From Ralstonia sp. SET104 (GTDB taxonomy: Bacteria > Pseudomonadota > Gammaproteobacteria > Burkholderiales > Burkholderiaceae), in assembly GCF_003851545.1 (NCBI RefSeq), contig NZ_BHVX01000008.1:124001-188000 (forward strand): DNA of 64,000 nt, read 5' to 3'. This document shows, piece by piece, positions 5,377 through 44,217 of the stretch (its first letter is position 1; each line of letters starts with the position of its first letter). The position numbers and the translations under genes are program-made. Under the pieces are notes generated by a model, which did no database searches, was not told where the DNA came from, and saw only the letters and a list, made by a program, of their open reading frames with translations.

Positions 5377-6696
5377 ATGCACAACGACCCCTCCGCCCAG
5401 GCCGCCTTGCGCGCCGCTTTGCCCAATCCGTCGCCGCGCGCGTTGCTGCACGGCTTGTTTGATACCGCCGTGGCCGCGGTCAGCGCGTCGCAGTGTCTGC
5501 CGGGCTTTCTGCCTGCGCCGCCACGTGGTCGCACGGTTGTGATTGGCGCAGGCAAAGGCGCTGCGGCGATGGCCGAAGCGGTTGAGCAGCACTGGAAGGG
5601 CGAGCTGTCTGGCCTGGTGGTCACGCGTTACGAGCATGGTCGCGCGCCGGGCACGAGCGGCCGTATCGAAGTCGTGGAGGCTTCGCACCCGGTTCCCGAC
5701 GAGGCCGGTCAGCGTGCTGCGCAACGCATGGTTGGCTTGCTGGAAGGTCTGACAGAAGACGACCTCGTGCTGTGCCTGATTTCCGGCGGTGGCTCGGCCC
5801 TGCTGGCGGCACCGGCCGAAGGGCTGACGCTGGCCGACAAGCAGGCCGTCAACCGCGCGCTGCTCAAGAGCGGCGCGAGCATCGGCGAGATGAACTGCGT
5901 GCGCAAGCACCTGTCGTCGATCAAGGGCGGGCGCCTGGCACTGGCCTGCGCACCGGCGCGTGTGGAGACGCTGCTCATCTCCGACATTCCCGGCGATGAC
6001 CCAACGCTCATCGCCAGCGGCCCGACGCTGCCCGACGCGACCACCTGCGCAGATGCCCTGGCCGTGATCAACAAATACGGCATCGACGTGCCCGAAGCCG
6101 TGCGCCGTCATCTGGAAACCGGCGCGGGTGAAACGCCCAAGCCCGGCGATGCACGCTTCGAAGGCCACCGCAGTCACGTCATCGCCACGGCGCAACACGC
6201 GCTGGAAGCCGCTGCAGCACAGGCCCGTGCACTCGGTTATGAGGCGCACATCCTGTCGGACAGCATCGAAGGCGAAGCGCGCGATGTGGCCGAAGTGCAT
6301 GCTGGCATCGTGCGGCAGATCGTGGCGCGCAATCAGCCGTTCAACAAGCCGTGCGTGATTCTGTCCGGCGGTGAGACGACCGTTACCGTGCGTGGCAATG
6401 GGCGTGGTGGCCGCAATGCCGAGTTCCTGCTCGCGCTGGGCGTGGCGCTGGATGGCTTGCCGGGCGTGCATGCGATTGCCTGCGATACCGATGGCATCGA
6501 TGGCTCGGAAGACAACGCTGGCGCGCTTCTGACGCCGGACAGTCTTGCCCGTGCCGAGGCACTCGGCTTGAAGCCGAAGCAACTGCTCGACAACAACGAT
6601 GGGTATGGGTTTTTTGATGCGCTCGGCGATCTGATCGTTACCGGGCCGACTCGGACTAACGTGAATGACTTTCGGGCGATTTTGATTACTGGGTGA
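5377..6696 (+). CDS. ttuD: Glycerate 2-kinase (MOFRL family, TtuD/GckA type)
   Basis: Phosphorylates D-glycerate to 2-phosphoglycerate, feeding enolase and then pyruvate kinase. The 439-residue length fits the DUF4147/MOFRL family. An N-terminal nucleotide-fold region (VVIGAGKGAAAMAEAVEQ, about 51-68), a Gly/Ser segment CLISGGGSALL (about 131-141) and the C-terminal MOFRL motif with GNGRGGRNAEFLLAL (about 341-355) are visible. The start ATG at 5377 lacks a strong ribosome site. As in hyi, the last ~100 bp shift to G/T-ending codons just before a repeat element. Some authors call this enzyme hydroxypyruvate reductase; kinase is the better-supported reading for this family. Confidence 0.92.
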   Translation: MHNDPSAQAALRAALPNPSPRALLHGLFDTAVAAVSASQCLPGFLPAPPRGRTVVIGAGKGAAAMAEAVEQHWKGELSGLVVTRYEHGRAPGTSGRIEVVEASHPVPDEAGQRAAQRMVGLLEGLTEDDLVLCLISGGGSALLAAPAEGLTLADKQAVNRALLKSGASIGEMNCVRKHLSSIKGGRLALACAPARVETLLISDIPGDDPTLIASGPTLPDATTCADALAVINKYGIDVPEAVRRHLETGAGETPKPGDARFEGHRSHVIATAQHALEAAAAQARALGYEAHILSDSIEGEARDVAEVHAGIVRQIVARNQPFNKPCVILSGGETTVTVRGNGRGGRNAEFLLALGVALDGLPGVHAIACDTDGIDGSEDNAGALLTPDSLARAEALGLKPKQLLDNNDGYGFFDALGDLIVTGPTRTNVNDFRAILITG

Positions 6697-9936: not shown

Positions 9937-10119
9937 CGCCCGTCAACGTGGGTTCAAACGCGTCGATCCCTCCGTCAGTAGGGGGCTAACTTCACCGATC
10001 TGTCATGTTCCGCCCTCTAACATCGATGATCGGCGTCGTGGCCCTGTTGCTCACCATGCTTGGGCCGTCAGAACAACACAACAGCGCACGCCATCGATTC
10101 GCCTTTTGGGGGAAGCACC

Positions 10120-11217
10120 ATGTGGCAGACACTGGCACGCCGCTGCGCGTGTGCATGTGCACTGGCGTGCGCGGCCGCTGTGACGCTGACGGCGCATGCG
10201 CAAGGCACGTCGTTCGTCGTCGGACAACTGATCGAGCGCGGCGGGGACCAAGCCGACTACGCACGCGACTTCATGGCCGGCGCCAAAGTCGCGTTCGATG
10301 CCGCCAACCAGAGCGGCGGCATCAAGGGCCGGCCCATCAGCCTGGTCCGGCGTGAAGTTGCGCAGAACGAGGCCGTACCGCAGGCCATCGACATGATCGA
10401 GCGCGACCGCGTGGAGGTGCTCTTCGGTGTAAGTGAGCGCCTGCTGCCCGCGCTGGCCGCGTCACCGGACATCGCACGGCGCAATGTGCCGCTGCTCGCA
10501 CCGCTTTCGGGCGCGACGTCTGCCTCTGACAACGTCTTGTTCATCCGCCCCGACTACGACCATGAAATCGTTGCCGCGCATCTCAGGCTGCGGCAGTTCG
10601 GTATGCGGCGGATCGCGCTGGTTACCGCTGCGGGCTTTGATCCGCAGCTTGGTGCGCGGCTGCGCAGCACGCTGGCCAAGGGTGCGGCGACGGAAACGCT
10701 GGACCTCTACACACTCGCCGGCGATGCGGGCGCGCTTGCCGCGCGCATTGCGCCAACCAAACCCACGGCAGTCATCGTTGCTGGCGACACCCTCACCTAC
10801 GCCACCGTCGGGCGCGCGCTGGCGCAGCAGGGTTGGTACGGCTTTCTGGTCGGGCTGTCGTCGGTCAACCCGCAGGTCGCGCGGGAGATTCTGGGCACGG
10901 GGTACAGCGGTGGGTTGCTGCTCGCGCAGACGGTGCCGAACCCGGCCAGCGGCAACACCAAGGTTGCGCGCGAGCATATGGCGCGGATGAAGCAGTTTCT
11001 GGATGAGCCCCCCTCTGCCGCGACGCTGTCAGGGTATATCGCCGCGACGTATTTGATTCAGGCGATCAATACGGCTGGAGGGAGGGTGGCAGGGGCTGAA
11101 CTGCGGCGGGCGTTGCAGACGCGGATGGATGTGGGTGGATTCACGTTGGACTTCACACGCGGGAATCGCGGTAGTGAATTTGTGGATCTGACCTACATCC
11201 AGGGGGTGAGGGATTGA
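10120..11217 (+). CDS. ABC-type branched-chain amino-acid-like periplasmic binding protein
   Basis: A 365-residue secreted protein of the type I periplasmic-binding family (LivJ/K-like). It has a signal peptide (MWQTLARRCACACALACAAA, cleavage near AHAQG at about residue 30). The mature part begins FVVGQLIERGGDQADYA and contains GAKVAFDAANQSGGIKGR, the classic ligand-lobe motif. The ATG at 10120 has GGGGAAGC upstream and opens the signal peptide; the upstream extension is not signal-like. No permease or ATPase genes lie nearby, so it may serve a distant transporter or act as a sensor. The ligand is unknown. The last ~120 bp shift to G-ending codons. Confidence 0.85.
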   Translation: MWQTLARRCACACALACAAAVTLTAHAQGTSFVVGQLIERGGDQADYARDFMAGAKVAFDAANQSGGIKGRPISLVRREVAQNEAVPQAIDMIERDRVEVLFGVSERLLPALAASPDIARRNVPLLAPLSGATSASDNVLFIRPDYDHEIVAAHLRLRQFGMRRIALVTAAGFDPQLGARLRSTLAKGAATETLDLYTLAGDAGALAARIAPTKPTAVIVAGDTLTYATVGRALAQQGWYGFLVGLSSVNPQVAREILGTGYSGGLLLAQTVPNPASGNTKVAREHMARMKQFLDEPPSAATLSGYIAATYLIQAINTAGGRVAGAELRRALQTRMDVGGFTLDFTRGNRGSEFVDLTYIQGVRD

Positions 11218-11295
11218 TTGGGGCGCTGCGGTTTTCCGCCTGTTCGTCGCCGGCAGAGGTACGAAATTACTGACAGGCCCCAGGGCCCCAACGGT

Positions 11296-12444
11296 TCAAC
11301 TCGCCGCTGGCTTTTCCCCAGTCAGCAAGTAATGCATCAATTCCCGCACGGGCCGAATCGCCTGACCAAACGGCAACTTCCCGGCGCCGCGGAAGAACAA
11401 GCCACGTTCAACATCTCCCCGCAGCGCCTGGGCCAGTTTCAAATCAATACAAAACTGCCCCACCTTTCCAATCCCATCCCGTAGTCCGCAGGTTTGCAGG
11501 CAGTCGAACCCCTGCAGGCAATCCCGCACCTTGGCCTTGGCCTGCAAGGCACTCTCCCGCGACAGATAGCGCGACAACCAGGGTGTCATGACCGCGCGTG
11601 CGGGTAAGCCCGCCACGCTGACGAACTCGCCGATATCCCCCTGTTCTGCGCCGGTCAGCACCCGCTTGAAGCGCACGTGCGCATCGCCCTCTTCCGTCAC
11701 TGCAAACGCGGTGCCGAGCTGCACGGCGGCTGCGCCCTTGTCGAGCCAGTGCTTCACCTTCGCATGCGAATCAATGCCACCCGCCAGGATGATCGGAATC
11801 TGCTCGGCGGCCAGCCCCAGCTTGACGAACAGTTCACGGCATTCATCCAGCACGCGCGCAAACGAGAACCGCTCGTCGCGCAAATCCTCAATGCGCGCCG
11901 CACCCAGGTGCCCACCGGCGTGGGTCGGGTGCTCGATCACCACCGCATCGGGCAACCGCGCCTTCTTCATCCATCGTTTGAGCACCACGCCCACGCCGCG
12001 CGAGTCGGAAAGAATCGGAATGAGTGCCACCTTCGGATGCTCCGCCGTCATCTCCGGCAGATCGAGCGGCAATCCCGCGCCCATGACGATCGCATCGGCG
12101 CCGCTCTCGCACGCCTGCCGCACCAGCGCCGCGTGTGATTCCACCGCCTTCATCACATTTACGGCAATCATGCCGTTGCCCTGGCTGCCTTCACGCGCGG
12201 CGCGGATTTCGCGGTCCAGCGCGACGAGGTTGGCGGCGTTGATGGCGTCTTTGTCGCGCGACTTTTCAGTGGCGGCCAGCAGGTCTGCATGGTGATGCCG
12301 CAAATCGATACTGGCGATAGTGCCGACGCCGCCCTCGCGCGCCACGGCGCCGGCCAGCCGGTGCGCCGAAATACCCACGCCCATCCCGCCCTGCACGATG
12401 GGCACGAGGCTGCGCCCCGCGAGTGTGAACCGACGCTCCAGCAT
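11296..12444 (-). CDS. NAD(P)H-dependent flavin oxidoreductase / nitronate monooxygenase family
   Basis: A 382-residue FMN-dependent TIM-barrel enzyme of the nitronate monooxygenase (2-nitropropane dioxygenase) family. Near the start, VPIVQGGMGVGISAHRLAGA carries the family's phosphate/flavin motif. VVIEHPTHAGGHLGA (about 155-169) holds the conserved His/Gly segment, and IPIILAGGIDSHAKV (about 212-226) is the C-terminal FMN-phosphate loop. The ATG at 12442-12444 has a GAGGGAG site; the open frame continues 80 codons upstream without motifs. The physiological substrate is unknown: the family includes nitronate detoxifiers and FabK-like reductases. It is convergent with the binding-protein gene. 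Confidence 0.85.
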   Translation of the reverse strand: MLERRFTLAGRSLVPIVQGGMGVGISAHRLAGAVAREGGVGTIASIDLRHHHADLLAATEKSRDKDAINAANLVALDREIRAAREGSQGNGMIAVNVMKAVESHAALVRQACESGADAIVMGAGLPLDLPEMTAEHPKVALIPILSDSRGVGVVLKRWMKKARLPDAVVIEHPTHAGGHLGAARIEDLRDERFSFARVLDECRELFVKLGLAAEQIPIILAGGIDSHAKVKHWLDKGAAAVQLGTAFAVTEEGDAHVRFKRVLTGAEQGDIGEFVSVAGLPARAVMTPWLSRYLSRESALQAKAKVRDCLQGFDCLQTCGLRDGIGKVGQFCIDLKLAQALRGDVERGLFFRGAGKLPFGQAIRPVRELMHYLLTGEKPAAS

Positions 12445-12742
12445 GACAACTCCCTCAGCGGCTTTACCGCAACGCAATAGAAAATGGGTTCGAGCGTCGC
12501 ATAAGTGAAACGCGGCCGCGTTGCGCCAGATCAAGGCCGGGGATATCGGTGCACATCGCTGCACATGCGCCACGTGCGCAGTTGATATTTTTTCAGCGAT
12601 TTGAGGGGGTGTAGGAATCACAAAGGCCGGCAATCTGTCTCTTCTTGTCAGAAGTTCAGCTTGATTCTTGAACCCAGAGGGCATGAACTCTAACGTGAAA
12701 AAGCACCCATTCCGGTGCGATTAAAACTTCTTGGAGAGGCTT
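12445..12742. other. Divergent intergenic region with a short hairpin
   Basis: 298 bp between the flavoenzyme start and the peptide/ABC cassette. It holds both promoters and a hairpin at 12698-12718 (GCACC / GGTGC, 6-nt loop) flanked by AAAAA, which would read as a small terminator on the minus strand. No gene ends there, so its role is unclear. GC content drops from here into the cassette. Confidence 0.35.
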
Positions 12743-12838
12743 ATGAAATCGATTGAAATCGACGCCGTCGTTAAAAAGGCAGTGGAGAAGATCAAGGATA
12801 CTTATTCACGAATTTACGCATCATGCAATGTTCCTTGA
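12743..12838 (+). CDS. Possible 31-residue peptide, or 5' piece of a frameshifted gene
   Basis: The ATG at 12743 has a strong GGAGAGG site and encodes MKSIEIDAVVKKAVEKIKDT followed by YSRIYASCNVP, then TGA at 12836-12838. The first two thirds look like a charged amphipathic helix and the end carries one Cys, a shape seen in peptide precursors. Alternatively a one-base indel around 12800-12825 would join this start to the frame that continues to 13229, since that frame has no ribosome site of its own at its TTG start. The sequence alone does not decide. It belongs to the lower-GC cassette with the ABC gene at 13231. Confidence 0.45.
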   Translation: MKSIEIDAVVKKAVEKIKDTYSRIYASCNVP

Positions 12839-13229
12839 TGAGTTGCGGTATGGGCACTACGCATATGCGGAAATTCTGAAGCGCTCCACATGGGCCCGTT
12901 CGGCCATCCTGAACGTTGATCGCCCACTGGATAAGGTTTTGCATAGCACTGTTGTTGCTGTGGAAGTGTTGCTATGGAGGAATGCGCATCTCGGTCATCC
13001 CGTTCAGTCTCGCGTTCATCCTCCGACGGATGTTCTTATCGAGCAAGTGAGTTCCTCCATTGCCTCTATGGAGGCGTCCGTTCAGCAGAATCAGGCGGTC
13101 TTTCAGCCGCGAGCCCTTGCATTGCTTGCCAACGCGAAGCGGGTGATGGCCAATGTTTTCGGTCGCCCATCGACCGAAGCGACACATCGGCATGAGGGCG
13201 CGATGCCCCTCCCTGCGAGCACCCTCTAA
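12828..13229 (+). CDS. Unrecognised protein upstream of ABC exporter
   Basis: From the ATG at 12828 this encodes 133 residues (MFLDELRYGHYAYAEILK...). The frame is open from 12753. It looks mostly helical (VLHSTVVAVEVLLWRNAH, then QVSSSIASMEASVQQNQA), with no signal peptide and no motif I recognise. Its stop codon is 1 bp before the ATG of the ABC gene, so it is very likely a real gene translated with it. It overlaps the end of the 31-residue ORF by 11 bp. Either it starts internally, or it is the body of a gene whose 5' part (12743 on) has been shifted out of frame. Confidence 0.5.
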   Translation: MFLDELRYGHYAYAEILKRSTWARSAILNVDRPLDKVLHSTVVAVEVLLWRNAHLGHPVQSRVHPPTDVLIEQVSSSIASMEASVQQNQAVFQPRALALLANAKRVMANVFGRPSTEATHRHEGAMPLPASTL

Positions 13230-13230
13230 C

Positions 13231-14664
13231 ATGGAAAATGTGTTAACACGCGAAACGTCCACTGAGCCTACGTCTGTGTGCGGTGCCGCAAGCGCACGCT
13301 CAGGGGACTCGAAAACACGCATTGTTCTTTTCCACGCCTCCGCTTATGTCGCGCTTGCCCTTGTTGTTCTGCATCAGGGCGTCGTGGCTAGTTCAACCAT
13401 CTTCCTAACAAGGGTCATCGAGCAATTCCAATCGGGCCATCCATACGCGACGAGTCTCGCACTTTATCTTGCAGCAATGGCATTCCCTTACTTGCCGGGA
13501 TGTGCGTCATTTTTGTTCCTGCAGCGATGGATTAACAATGCCCATCAAGATTTTGTTGCGCTTGTAGTTCGCAGAATGAAGGACAGTACCGGCCAGTATC
13601 GACACGAGAAAGTGCGTGAGCGCGTGACTGCCATCTTGGCGCGTAATGCATTTCCCGTTTTGAAGGACTACATTTCATTCATCCATGACCTGGCAAGTTT
13701 CACGCTCAACAGTGTACTGAGCATATCCGTGATCAGTTTCCTGCTGCCGACCGATCTCTTGGTCGGATACGGGGTGAGCCTCGCTCTATGCTTTGTCATC
13801 ATCGCTGCGTTGCGCGGAACAGTTTCGCGAGCGTCATCGGCGTATGAAAACCGGTACCTGGACTACTCCACCGTGCTAGATGTGGGATGGCAAAACCTGA
13901 CGATTGGAAACCGGCATAACGCTGCTGTATGGCAAAACAGAAGAGAAGATGCTGGGCAATCGTTCTATGCTTCCGCCAACAGTTTGGAGGCAAGGAAACA
14001 AATTAGTAATGTGCTGCTGGCTGCGACGTCGTTGGCGCCGACCATCTACCTCGTATTGGCGATTGTGCGTGATAACGCTGCAAGTCCGCCGGTGATTGCG
14101 GCAGTTATTGTTAGCTTGACGAGAATATTTCTGATAATTAATTCCTTAAGCGCGCTTGTTCACAAGGCTTTGGATTTGTCGGCTGTGCAGTCTCGGCTTA
14201 ATGTTTTATTCTCCGTGAGGGATAGTATTTCTGAAGAGGCCCTTCTTGATCCTGGAACTATCGGGCAGATCAATGTAAATGGGGTGGCGATTTCAGGGAA
14301 GACCGATCTGCTTGATTATTTCTCTGCAGTTGCGAATGGAAGGTATCGAATTACAGGGCCCAACGGCAGCGGTAAATCGACGGCACTTATGGCGCTTAAA
14401 CAGGAGTACGGGACTCAGTGCGTCATGTTGCCGGCCAATCTTACGGGCTTGATGTGGCTCGCGGACGGCAAGAATTTGTCTACCGGGCAGCGAACAGTGA
14501 CGTGTCTCCAAGAAATTCTCCAACAAGATGATGTGAAGTACGTCCTGCTCGATGAGTGGGACGCAAACCTCGATTCGAATAACGCGTCGGCGGTCGATGC
14601 CATGTTGGACGGGATTGCAGAGCATAAGGTGATCGTCGAAGTTCGACATATAAGGAGGGACTGA
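13231..14664 (+). CDS. ABC transporter, fused membrane and ATPase domains (YojI/PvdE/SyrD-like peptide exporter)
   Basis: A 477-residue half-transporter. The N-terminal half has about five to six hydrophobic segments (for example YVALALVVLHQGVVASSTIF, about 34-53). The C-terminal ATPase has Walker A GPNGSGKST (about 376-384), a signature LSTGQR (about 420-425), Walker B with YVLLDEWDANLD (about 440-451) and a late His in VEVRH. The LSTGQR signature and the DEW after Walker B are typical of the cyclic-peptide/microcin exporter clade (YojI, PvdE, SyrD), which suggests export of a small peptide. That is inference from motifs. The ATPase is shorter than usual. Codon use and GC are lower than in the neighbours, suggesting transfer. 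Confidence 0.75.
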   Translation: MENVLTRETSTEPTSVCGAASARSGDSKTRIVLFHASAYVALALVVLHQGVVASSTIFLTRVIEQFQSGHPYATSLALYLAAMAFPYLPGCASFLFLQRWINNAHQDFVALVVRRMKDSTGQYRHEKVRERVTAILARNAFPVLKDYISFIHDLASFTLNSVLSISVISFLLPTDLLVGYGVSLALCFVIIAALRGTVSRASSAYENRYLDYSTVLDVGWQNLTIGNRHNAAVWQNRREDAGQSFYASANSLEARKQISNVLLAATSLAPTIYLVLAIVRDNAASPPVIAAVIVSLTRIFLIINSLSALVHKALDLSAVQSRLNVLFSVRDSISEEALLDPGTIGQINVNGVAISGKTDLLDYFSAVANGRYRITGPNGSGKSTALMALKQEYGTQCVMLPANLTGLMWLADGKNLSTGQRTVTCLQEILQQDDVKYVLLDEWDANLDSNNASAVDAMLDGIAEHKVIVEVRHIRRD

Positions 14665-14810
14665 TGAACGGAAACGAGCTGGCCGAAGCACTGTTGCCCG
14701 AGGCGGATGGGATCACGTTGCCCCCATCCTCCAGAGCCTGCTGGACAAGGGACTGGTTGGAAAGGCTTCATGTGACGTTCGGGTCTCTGCCAAGGCTGGC
14801 TCAGGCGTGA
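14664..14810 (+). CDS. Small ORF coupled to the ABC gene; possibly frameshifted
   Basis: The ATG at 14664 overlaps the ABC stop codon and has AAGGAGGG 9 bp upstream, so translation is very likely. The reading frame gives 48 residues starting MNGNELAEALLPEADGITLP and ends at 14810. After the CCCCC run at 14721-14725 another frame reads more like protein (ILQSLLDKGLVGKASCDVRV, ending GSGVIP before TGA at 14816-14818). This suggests a one-base indel in the C run, real or from sequencing. No family is recognised. It is the last gene of the cassette. Confidence 0.5.
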   Translation: MNGNELAEALLPEADGITLPPSSRACWTRDWLERLHVTFGSLPRLAQA

Positions 14811-14971
14811 TCCCGTGAGATGAACAGCTAGATTAAGGGGCGTTTCTGGTGCGCAATCCTGCACATTGCATGCGGGTTCCGACTGAAATGACCGCTTGGC
14901 CCCGTCACCTGTCGGGTTTTCCTGCTGGCAACGCTGGCAGCCCTGTGCTTAAATTCAGCCTCGTTGGATGA

Positions 14972-17068
<2,097 letters not shown>

Positions 17069-17082
17069 CCTCAACCGGTGCA

Positions 17083-18240
17083 ATGTCAACTTCAACGGCT
17101 TTTGATGTAACGATCCTCGGTGGCGGCCTTGCTGGCCGCCTGTGTGCCTGGCAACTCGCGCAGACGGGGGTACCGCCCGCGCGCATTGCCGTGGTGGAGC
17201 GCGGCGCGCGCGATGGCAGCGGTGCTGCTGCGTACGTGGCAGCGGCCATGCTCGCCCCGCTGGCCGAAGCCGCCGTGGCGGATCGTTTCGTCGTCGACTT
17301 GGGGTTGGCAAGTCTGGCACTGTGGCGCGATTGGCTGCCCCGGCTGCGCACGCCGGTGTTCTTCCAGGAAGCCGGCACGCTGGTGGTGTGGCATGCGGCA
17401 GACCGCGGCGAGGCATCGCTGTTTGCCAACCACGTGCGAGCCGCCGCGCCCGCCGAGCGCGTTGCCGCCGATTTGCGCGCGGTAGACGCCGCTGGCATCG
17501 CCGCGCTGGAGCCGCTGCTCGCGCAGCGCTTCACGCAGGGCCTGTATCTGGCGGGCGAAGCTCAGCTCGACCCGCGCACTTTGCTCGATGCGCTGGCGAC
17601 GGAACTGGAAATGCTCGGCGTGCAGTTGCGCTGGAACACGGAGGTCACCGATCCGAGCCCCGATGCACTCGCGGCCAATGGCCTGGGCGCGCGTCTCGTG
17701 CTCGATTGCCGTGGGCTGGGCGCCAAACCGCAATGGCCGCGTCTGCGTGGCCTGCGTGGCGAGGTGGTGCGCATCCATGCGCCCGATGTATCGCTCACGC
17801 GGCCCGTTCGCATGCTGCATCCGCGCTATCCGCTGTACATCGCGCCCAAGCCAGGCAACGTCTACGTGATCGGCGCGACGGAAATCGAATCCGACGACAT
17901 GTCGCCCGCCAGTGTGCGCTCCACGCTGGAGCTGTTGTCTGCTGCCTATGCTGTGCACCCCGCCTTTGGTGAGGCGCGTGTGCTGGAGCTGAACACGCAG
18001 TGCCGCCCAACGCTGCCCGACCACCGCCCCGCTATCCGTTGGGATGGTGCGAGCACGCTGTCGGTCAACGGTCTGTACCGGCACGGCTACATGATCGCGC
18101 CCGCCGTCACGCAAGCGGCGGTGGCGGTTGCGCGTGAACTGTTGGATGGCCGTGCCATGGATGCGAACAACGACGCATGGCCCGAACTGTTCGCTGCGAG
18201 CCGCATGTCGCCAAACCGGCCCGAACCTGTTTTGTCATGA
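17083..18240 (+). CDS. thiO: FAD-dependent glycine oxidase, thiamin type
   Basis: Oxidises glycine to dehydroglycine for the thiazole half of thiamin. A 385-residue DAO-family flavoprotein: the N-terminal FAD motif is FDVTILGGGLAGRLCAWQ (about 6-23), VIGATEIESDDMS (about 262-274) is the conserved DAO segment, and NGLYRHGYMIAPAV near the C-terminus is the flavin-contacting loop. The ATG at 17083 lies 14 bp after the thiC stop. Its own TGA overlaps the thiS ATG (ATGA), so translation is coupled. The position in the operon supports the ThiO role over a general amino-acid oxidase. Confidence 0.93.
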   Translation: MSTSTAFDVTILGGGLAGRLCAWQLAQTGVPPARIAVVERGARDGSGAAAYVAAAMLAPLAEAAVADRFVVDLGLASLALWRDWLPRLRTPVFFQEAGTLVVWHAADRGEASLFANHVRAAAPAERVAADLRAVDAAGIAALEPLLAQRFTQGLYLAGEAQLDPRTLLDALATELEMLGVQLRWNTEVTDPSPDALAANGLGARLVLDCRGLGAKPQWPRLRGLRGEVVRIHAPDVSLTRPVRMLHPRYPLYIAPKPGNVYVIGATEIESDDMSPASVRSTLELLSAAYAVHPAFGEARVLELNTQCRPTLPDHRPAIRWDGASTLSVNGLYRHGYMIAPAVTQAAVAVARELLDGRAMDANNDAWPELFAASRMSPNRPEPVLS

Positions 18241-44141: not shown

Positions 44142-44217
44142 TGGTGGCCTGGGGCGGAATCGAACCACCGACACGCGGATTTTCAATCCGCTGCTCTACC
44201 AACTGAGCTACCGGGCC
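44142..44217 (-). tRNA. tRNA-Phe (anticodon GAA)
   Basis: 76 nt on the minus strand including the encoded CCA. Starts GGCCCGGTAGCTCAGTTGGT, with anticodon stem-loop GGATTGAAAATCC (anticodon GAA, loop TTGAAAA) and T-loop GGTTCGATTCC. The acceptor stem pairs GGCCCGG with CCAGGCC, which leaves a C-A mismatch at pair 5-68 where a C-G pair would be expected. This may be a sequence variant or an error. Downstream lies the hairpin at 44071-44099. Confidence 0.95.

Follow-up and report, generated by a model that had tools for sequence, protein, structure and literature searches.

The stretch of DNA analysed here (hereafter the window) comprises 64,000 nucleotides of one contig of Ralstonia sp. SET104 (NZ_BHVX01000008.1), and its positions 12541-14860 hold a cassette of four open reading frames (ORF1 to ORF4) encoding 31, 133, 477 and 48 residues, respectively (Table 1). 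An earlier note, made from the letters alone, described the locus accurately. The lengths, coordinates and close packing of the four ORFs are as it gave them, ORF1 is preceded by the ribosome site GGAGAGG, one base lies between the ORF2 stop and the ORF3 ATG, and the GC content differs from that of the surroundings (51.9% over 12541-14860 vs. 64.1% in the whole window). What these ORFs encode is read differently below.

The cassette is an insertion, which was probably acquired horizontally. Within the genus, 15 further genomes were compared: their match to the left flank ends at window positions 12537-12570, and their match to the right flank restarts between 14860 and 14942, in 12 cases at 14861; a short stretch stands in place of the insert in 14 of the 15 when compared in register. 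The gene order that the earlier note had proposed to look for in other Ralstonia is missing from all 15, and ORF3 has no match in them at E <= 0.001. The flanks are ordinary, as had been said, and consist of a nitronate-monooxygenase-like gene (minus strand) and, beyond a thiamine pyrophosphate (TPP) riboswitch, a thiC-like gene, both gene names being presumptive ones judged from the sequence. A third copy of the imperfect direct repeat that flanks the insert, at 12538-12556, overlaps the left copy, so the flanking repeat is possibly a chance match. No transposase or integrase was recognised among the cassette ORFs, and no RNA element other than the TPP riboswitch exceeded the threshold over positions 10000-18000, leaving none inside the cassette. 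No tRNA lies near the insert, the single tRNA of the window being at 44142-44217.

Judged by its sequence, ORF3 is the sole whole gene of the cassette, and it looks like an exporter. It is the fused membrane/ATPase protein that the earlier note had recognised from LSTGQR and DEW, with the motifs GPNGSGKST, LSTGQR and LLDEWDANLD. A hidden Markov model (HMM) of the exporter covers ORF3 at full length with an E value of 1.8e-232, ORF3 itself being among the five rows of the model. Four relatives show 39-50% identity to ORF3 and share its ATPase motif columns, among which Walker A, the signature, Walker B and the H-loop histidine are invariant or nearly so. The Pfam family ABC_tran, for the ATP-binding cassette (ABC), matches ORF3 at 25.9 bits with a cutoff of 25. 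A profile built from 15 exporters has matches in the PDB among one-chain ABC exporters, e.g., BmrA and MsbA, and the N-terminal membrane domain is assigned by this kind of profile match. The Pfam scan of ORF3 gave no peptidase domain; the best NCBIfam match is a peptidase-containing ABC transporter, in an alignment that excludes the first 148 of 673 positions. The best 25 of 38 NCBIfam families for ORF3 include no model for cyclic-peptide exporters, which does not amount to an exclusion; TIGR01194 is the number that we take to be that of the YojI/PvdE/SyrD cyclic-peptide exporter model.

The earlier note had treated ORF2 as a separate 133-residue protein, whereas it is the C-terminal ~45% of an alpha-ketoglutarate (aKG)-HExxH enzyme and no independent protein. 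The frame of ORF2 extends upstream of its Met through LIHEFTHHAMFLDEL, including HEFTHH. The six-frame segments of the window (n = 1,407) were searched with HMMs of the relatives, and segment 12747-13229 matches the intact enzyme with an E value of 2.2e-52 at model positions 165-284 of 298; the next segment stands at E 4. As no earlier part of the model is matched, the enzyme fragment lacks its N-terminal ~165 residues. The NCBIfam model TIGR04267, aKG-HExxH peptide beta-hydroxylase, matches ORF2 with an E value of 4.1e-6 and 26.9 bits, under the cutoff of 40, beginning at model position 78 of 177. Among 298 further genomes of the family, four contain a relative of ORF2, each within an open frame of 304-358 residues. 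Three other identities for ORF2 were rejected: an AllG-like protein (Pfam E 0.0055, below cutoff), a new helical protein, and a working HExxH enzyme fused by a frameshift, for which the ~165 N-terminal residues are wholly absent.

ORF1 combines a leader with a tail of another origin. Its start, MKSIEIDAVVKKAVEKIKD, matches positions 1-19 of the precursor HMM with an E value of 0.025, the top result among the segments searched (runner-up 1.1). Against the precursor of Herbaspirillum CF444, ORF1 scores 44, which none of 1000 shuffles reaches; over six precursors, the shuffles scoring as high number 0, 0, 2, 9, 17 and 493 per 1000. In its final 12 residues, ORF1 reads through the HExxH stretch in a different frame. 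The leader in ORF1 together with the HExxH stretch in its tail indicates that a deletion brought the precursor leader next to the enzyme's second half. ORF1 was therefore rejected as a complete bioactive peptide, since the conserved core is absent and its end is out-of-frame enzyme sequence. Instead of a short precursor with a conserved core beside a modifying enzyme, as a ribosomally synthesised and post-translationally modified peptide (RiPP) cluster would have, 19 leader codons are left in the window. No precursor match was found elsewhere in the genome, in a search that had no positive control. The earlier note had itself considered that the upstream ORFs might be broken pieces of one conserved enzyme, and this holds for ORF2 and for the tail of ORF1.

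ORF4 reads as the deletion scar of a JmjC oxygenase gene. Its first 11 residues match the JmjC start of Herbaspirillum CF444 (MNGSNFAQLLL), with 0 of 1000 shuffles as high; against a Cupriavidus JmjC N-terminus, 18 of 1000 are as high. Under ORF4, in a different frame, lies a match to the JmjC C-terminus (E 0.0035, model positions 364-387 of 391), again the top of the 1,407 segments, with the next at 0.55. ORF4 has no Pfam match, so that JmjC_2 (PF08007) is not recognised in it; of the JmjC gene, the two ends remain. The one-base overlap with ORF3 is real, but the translationally coupled small ORF of the earlier note was rejected, as a JmjC start is read out of frame into the JmjC end.

Table 1. 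Features of the cassette and its surroundings (window coordinates)
Feature	Position	Strand	Basis or remark
Inserted segment, ~2.3 kb, lower GC	12541..14860	.	Between the presumed nitronate-monooxygenase-like gene and the TPP riboswitch/thiC region; flank matches in the genus break off and resume
Left copy of 19-nt imperfect direct repeat (79%)	12548..12566	+	Repeat family D1
ORF1, 31 aa	12743..12838	+	Putative leader remnant, then 12 residues from an out-of-frame reading of the HExxH gene
Putative leader remnant of precursor gene, first 19 codons (MKSIEIDAVVKKAVEKIKD)	12743..12799	+	Precursor HMM, shuffle tests
aKG-HExxH enzyme gene, predicted C-terminal part (from ~165 of ~297)	12798..13229	+	HMM, NCBIfam; HEFTHH at 12807-12824
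ORF2, 133 aa	12828..13229	+	Its first residue is a Met that lies within the enzyme fragment
ORF3, 477 aa, intact ABC exporter with fused membrane and ATPase domains	13231..14664	+	Full-length exporter HMM match
Walker A GPNGSGKST of exporter	14356..14382	+	Columns invariant in alignments of relatives
Signature motif STGQR of exporter	14479..14493	+	Alignment with relatives
Walker B LLDEW of exporter	14545-14559	+	Downstream of the signature motif
ORF4, 48 aa	14664..14810	+	JmjC start running out of frame into JmjC end
Putative 5' remnant of JmjC oxygenase gene (MNGNELAEALL)	14664..14696	+	Shuffle tests against relatives
Putative 3' remnant of JmjC gene, other frame (...WDHVAPILQSLLDKGLVGK...)	14696..14818	+	JmjC HMM
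Right copy of flanking direct repeat	14848..14866	+	Similar single-copy stretch visible by eye in empty sites
TPP riboswitch, outside the cassette	14965..15066	+	Rfam RF00059, 66.7 bits

In intact relatives from Cupriavidus and Herbaspirillum, the gene order is a 53-aa precursor, an aKG-HExxH enzyme of ~300 aa, a one-chain ABC exporter and a JmjC oxygenase, and a small gene sits upstream of intact HExxH enzymes. All six Burkholderiales precursors are 53 aa long, with a variable leader (e.g., MSKINLDSIVKSTAEKITRED...) and with LNMIAYEDQ at the end (four read WNMNQPLNMIAYEDQ); the intact precursor finishes with NMIAYEDQ plus one residue. The core motif was found in 16 of 19 loci, compared with 3 of 5,348 background segments, the 19 loci including close relatives (L017, L018 and L024 are of one genus) and the broken loci L015, L016, L024 and L082. 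The three misses are L010 (variant MIAH), L082 (MISYDD, read by eye) and L022 (no motif). At L016, the motif stands in a frame different from that of the precursor start; the precursor of this Moraxella bovoculi locus (5752-5917) lies in two frames around an A run, for which phase variation or a sequence error is possible.

The enzyme of locus L009, the sole intact relative scanned, matches TIGR04267 at 60.6 bits, above the cutoff, and residues H168, E169 and H172 of the HExxH motif (numbering of the first sequence) are invariant over 15 rows. A sequence search of the PDB gave no relatives of the enzyme; a fold comparison gave, as the closest solved fold, the HExxH domain of ChlB (PDB 8s5f, 13% identity), which is titled an alpha-ketoglutarate-dependent oxygenase and is reportedly the subject of Morishita et al. 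2024. A JmjC-type oxygenase gene follows the exporter in 5 of 14 named loci and in G1168, all of the JmjC_2 cases being Burkholderiales among the loci read here; the L009 protein matches PF08007 at 79.8 bits (gathering score 22). The named loci come from a scan of named genomes with two short peptide patterns (82 stretches), so that the 14 confirmed loci are a lower bound. With four candidates scored per genome, a phylum scan of 398 genomes found the own genome alone and an order scan of 399 genomes found two others, the second of which (L049) has no HExxH gene within the 4.2 kb read; one further scan scored eight candidates per genome. Plasmid searches returned few relatives (5, 6, 5 and 7 records), and L075 is at a contig edge with its upstream side outside the sequence.

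Several known systems resemble parts of this arrangement. For published HExxH enzymes, the hydroxylated residue is Gln, Asp, His, Phe or Pro, and backbone cleavage is also possible (PMC12636437, PMC13060819). Like PflC/PosC of the pfl/pos RiPP clusters, the enzyme of the relatives is a stand-alone aKG-HExxH family member accompanying a small precursor; unlike here, those clusters are described with an MNIO-nitroreductase fusion, GNAT, a nitrile-hydratase-like leader and an ARMD C-terminus (PMC12636437), whereas the present family has a ~53-aa precursor with the NMIAYEDQ-type end and a partner one-chain ABC exporter. The nitrilobacillin pes cluster also contains an aKG-HExxH hydroxylase (PesO), but with MNIO and nitrile synthetase partners, a C-terminal R(V/T)DN motif and Bacillus-related hosts (PMC13060819). 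JmjC (BpmG/BipG) and HExxH (BpmH/BipH) hydroxylases act on one precursor in biphenomycin clusters, as they would here; these clusters add an MNIO, a B12 radical SAM enzyme, an arginase-type enzyme, a TldD-type protease and a major facilitator superfamily (MFS) transporter, none of which is in the four adjacent genes here (PMC12257519, PMC12707348). The exporter shares the membrane-plus-ATPase architecture of BmrA and MsbA by profile, and differs from them in its low similarity, a conserved DEWDA after Walker B and a partner HExxH gene in most relatives read. No description of this peptide family was found in the main texts of open-licence papers under family names, motif strings or organism combinations.

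Taken together, the cassette is very probably an inserted RiPP cluster with two internal deletions, in which the precursor and both modifying enzymes were destroyed and the exporter stayed intact. Compared with the sequence of Herbaspirillum CF444, ~650 nt are lost from within the precursor gene to about codon 165 of the HExxH gene, and ~1,070 nt are lost within the JmjC gene. As it is read here, the window locus can make no peptide product. Gene content, predicted fold, conservation and deletions are direct observations, from which we infer the pathway of the intact relatives and the role of the peptide. There, the N-terminal part of the 53-aa precursor would bind the HExxH enzyme, which, using Fe(II) and alpha-ketoglutarate, would beta-hydroxylate the C-terminal core (NMIAYEDQ type) at one or more residues; a second oxidation would fall to the JmjC_2 oxygenase, and the ABC exporter would carry the product out of the cell. 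Several observations weigh against this account. The leader and JmjC-end remnants (E 0.025 and 0.0035) are each weak and are carried by position, order and shuffles, and one Cupriavidus precursor has no significant match to ORF1 (493 of 1000 shuffles equal or better). The JmjC gene is missing from L010 and L082, two loci of the same order, and two relatives, in Rhizobium and Acidimicrobiales, have the HExxH gene and no family exporter at E <= 1e-20. Of the 28 C-terminal residues that four intact relatives share without exception, the window fragment keeps 27. The deletion may thus be recent, in which case the intact exporter is uninformative on selection. Exporter retention is not universal either, as both exporter copies of G1071 are broken.

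The functional four-gene cassette of the earlier note, i.e., a peptide antibiotic or signal of 31 aa with two small accessory proteins and its own exporter, agrees with the good ribosome site, the close packing and the complete exporter. It is nevertheless very improbable, as ORF1 lacks the conserved core and has a tail of out-of-frame enzyme sequence, and ORF2 and ORF4 are pieces of far longer conserved genes; what survives of the proposal is that clusters of intact relatives encode a small peptide and that the ABC protein is exporter-like. An assembly or sequencing error that conceals a complete cluster is scarcely credible even for a draft assembly of 58 contigs, since there are two separate long deletions within one 256-kb contig and no second HExxH or exporter copy was found in the genome. 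The HExxH protein of the intact relatives could also be a peptidase that matures the precursor, given that HExxH is a protease motif and that PflC hydrolyses its substrate without needing the leader (PMC12636437). The TIGR04267 match and the ChlB HExxH fold, with its oxygenase title, make a hydroxylase the better reading and a peptidase unlikely.

With the degraded RiPP cluster as the preferred reading, the exporter of the window is either an unused leftover or kept because neighbours produce the peptide, or a related one, which it expels. Plain decay, in which both deletions are recent and the exporter is simply not degraded yet, has roughly an even chance of being correct; the well conserved HExxH fragment favours it, but other lineages have also lost the enzyme while the exporter stayed whole. 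The HExxH gene is broken next to a whole exporter in P. tasmaniensis (G1059) and split in G1202, where the exporter is whole, and it has an early frame break in a Paraburkholderia metagenome-assembled genome (MAG). In the genus of M. bovoculi, 7 of 22 genomes have the exporter. Among these seven, the HExxH gene is present in M. bovoculi and absent at E <= 1e-5 from the remaining six, of which five keep a whole exporter. Psychrobacter plasmid pA11BP3 carries the exporter gene without an HExxH neighbour, annotated as 418 aa and matching ORF3 from residue 48 on, and thus possibly short at its start. That the exporter was kept as an orphan immunity gene, pumping out a toxic peptide of related producers, is possible, if short of probable. 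These losses of the enzyme with retention of the exporter, shared by the window, fit a role in export or immunity that does not depend on production, without proving it. A trio of orphan exporters gives a ratio of nonsynonymous to synonymous rates (dN/dS) of 0.19-0.26 over 440 codons, from small counts (16-18 synonymous and 12-14 nonsynonymous differences) in three members that share ancestry. Only this trio bears on orphans, because the group of other Moraxella is at or close to saturation, while time before the loss is also spanned by the Photorhabdus pairs (0.11-0.17). However, these ratios come from other lineages and not from the exporter of the window, no product has a known toxicity, orphan exporters may have unrecognised partners, and the two broken copies in G1071 also speak against immunity.

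Several further loci were observed beside these. A second, diverged exporter copy without an HExxH neighbour occurs in a Bdellovibrio-like MAG (L085 4457-5794, G1058), and in G981 (L048/L052 4413-6677) the HExxH enzyme and the ABC exporter share one open frame of 779 aa from stop to stop, or 754 aa from the first Met. A methyltransferase-like gene lies right after the HExxH gene at L017 6873-7751 (PF13649, below cutoff) and L022 6674-7522 (PF08241, above cutoff), which suggests further tailoring in other lineages. At L020 6856-7953 and L021 6803-7915, the gene after that of the HExxH enzyme encodes a protein of ~370 aa that contains an HDHDF motif and lacks Pfam matches at E 0.001; the two proteins look similar and are possibly a new partner enzyme. 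On plasmids of Moraxella osloensis (L045 4115-6306) and Methylophaga thalassica (L046 3087-5300), the exporter family stands behind a DUF6875 protein, annotated on both plasmids, that replaces the HExxH enzyme (PF21780, 86.3 bits in L046). The small ORF in front has a Trp-containing end (PWRW; GWGGGWSW), and the arrangement has the look of a second class of peptide modification. HExxH genes also occur on the S. aureus plasmid pPH1-1 (L051 5679-9035), where two are in tandem, and on an S. warneri plasmid (L050 4425-6768). They are preceded by a small ORF that ends in QNMQIHDEE or PLRMQIHTKEK, an MFS transporter gene lies close by, and they are possibly a Gram-positive counterpart.

For the family as a whole, we tentatively propose, without counting the proposal as probable, that the intact relatives are an undescribed, sparse RiPP family of Burkholderiales, Enterobacterales, Moraxellales, Rhizobiales and Bdellovibrio-like bacteria, with a tiny precursor that has an M[IV]A[YF]-acidic C-terminal core, stand-alone aKG-HExxH oxidation and a partner ABC exporter, in some cases as a fusion with the enzyme. 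The peptides would be toxic to competitors, and the exporter would provide self-protection and, once production is lost, be repeatedly kept as an orphan immunity gene, as in the window. The window leads to a compact pathway of a precursor, one or two Fe/alpha-ketoglutarate oxygenases and an exporter. This pathway has at most four genes and can easily be tested in E. coli, and the recurrent orphan exporters yield a direct, testable prediction, namely that the exporter is an immunity gene.
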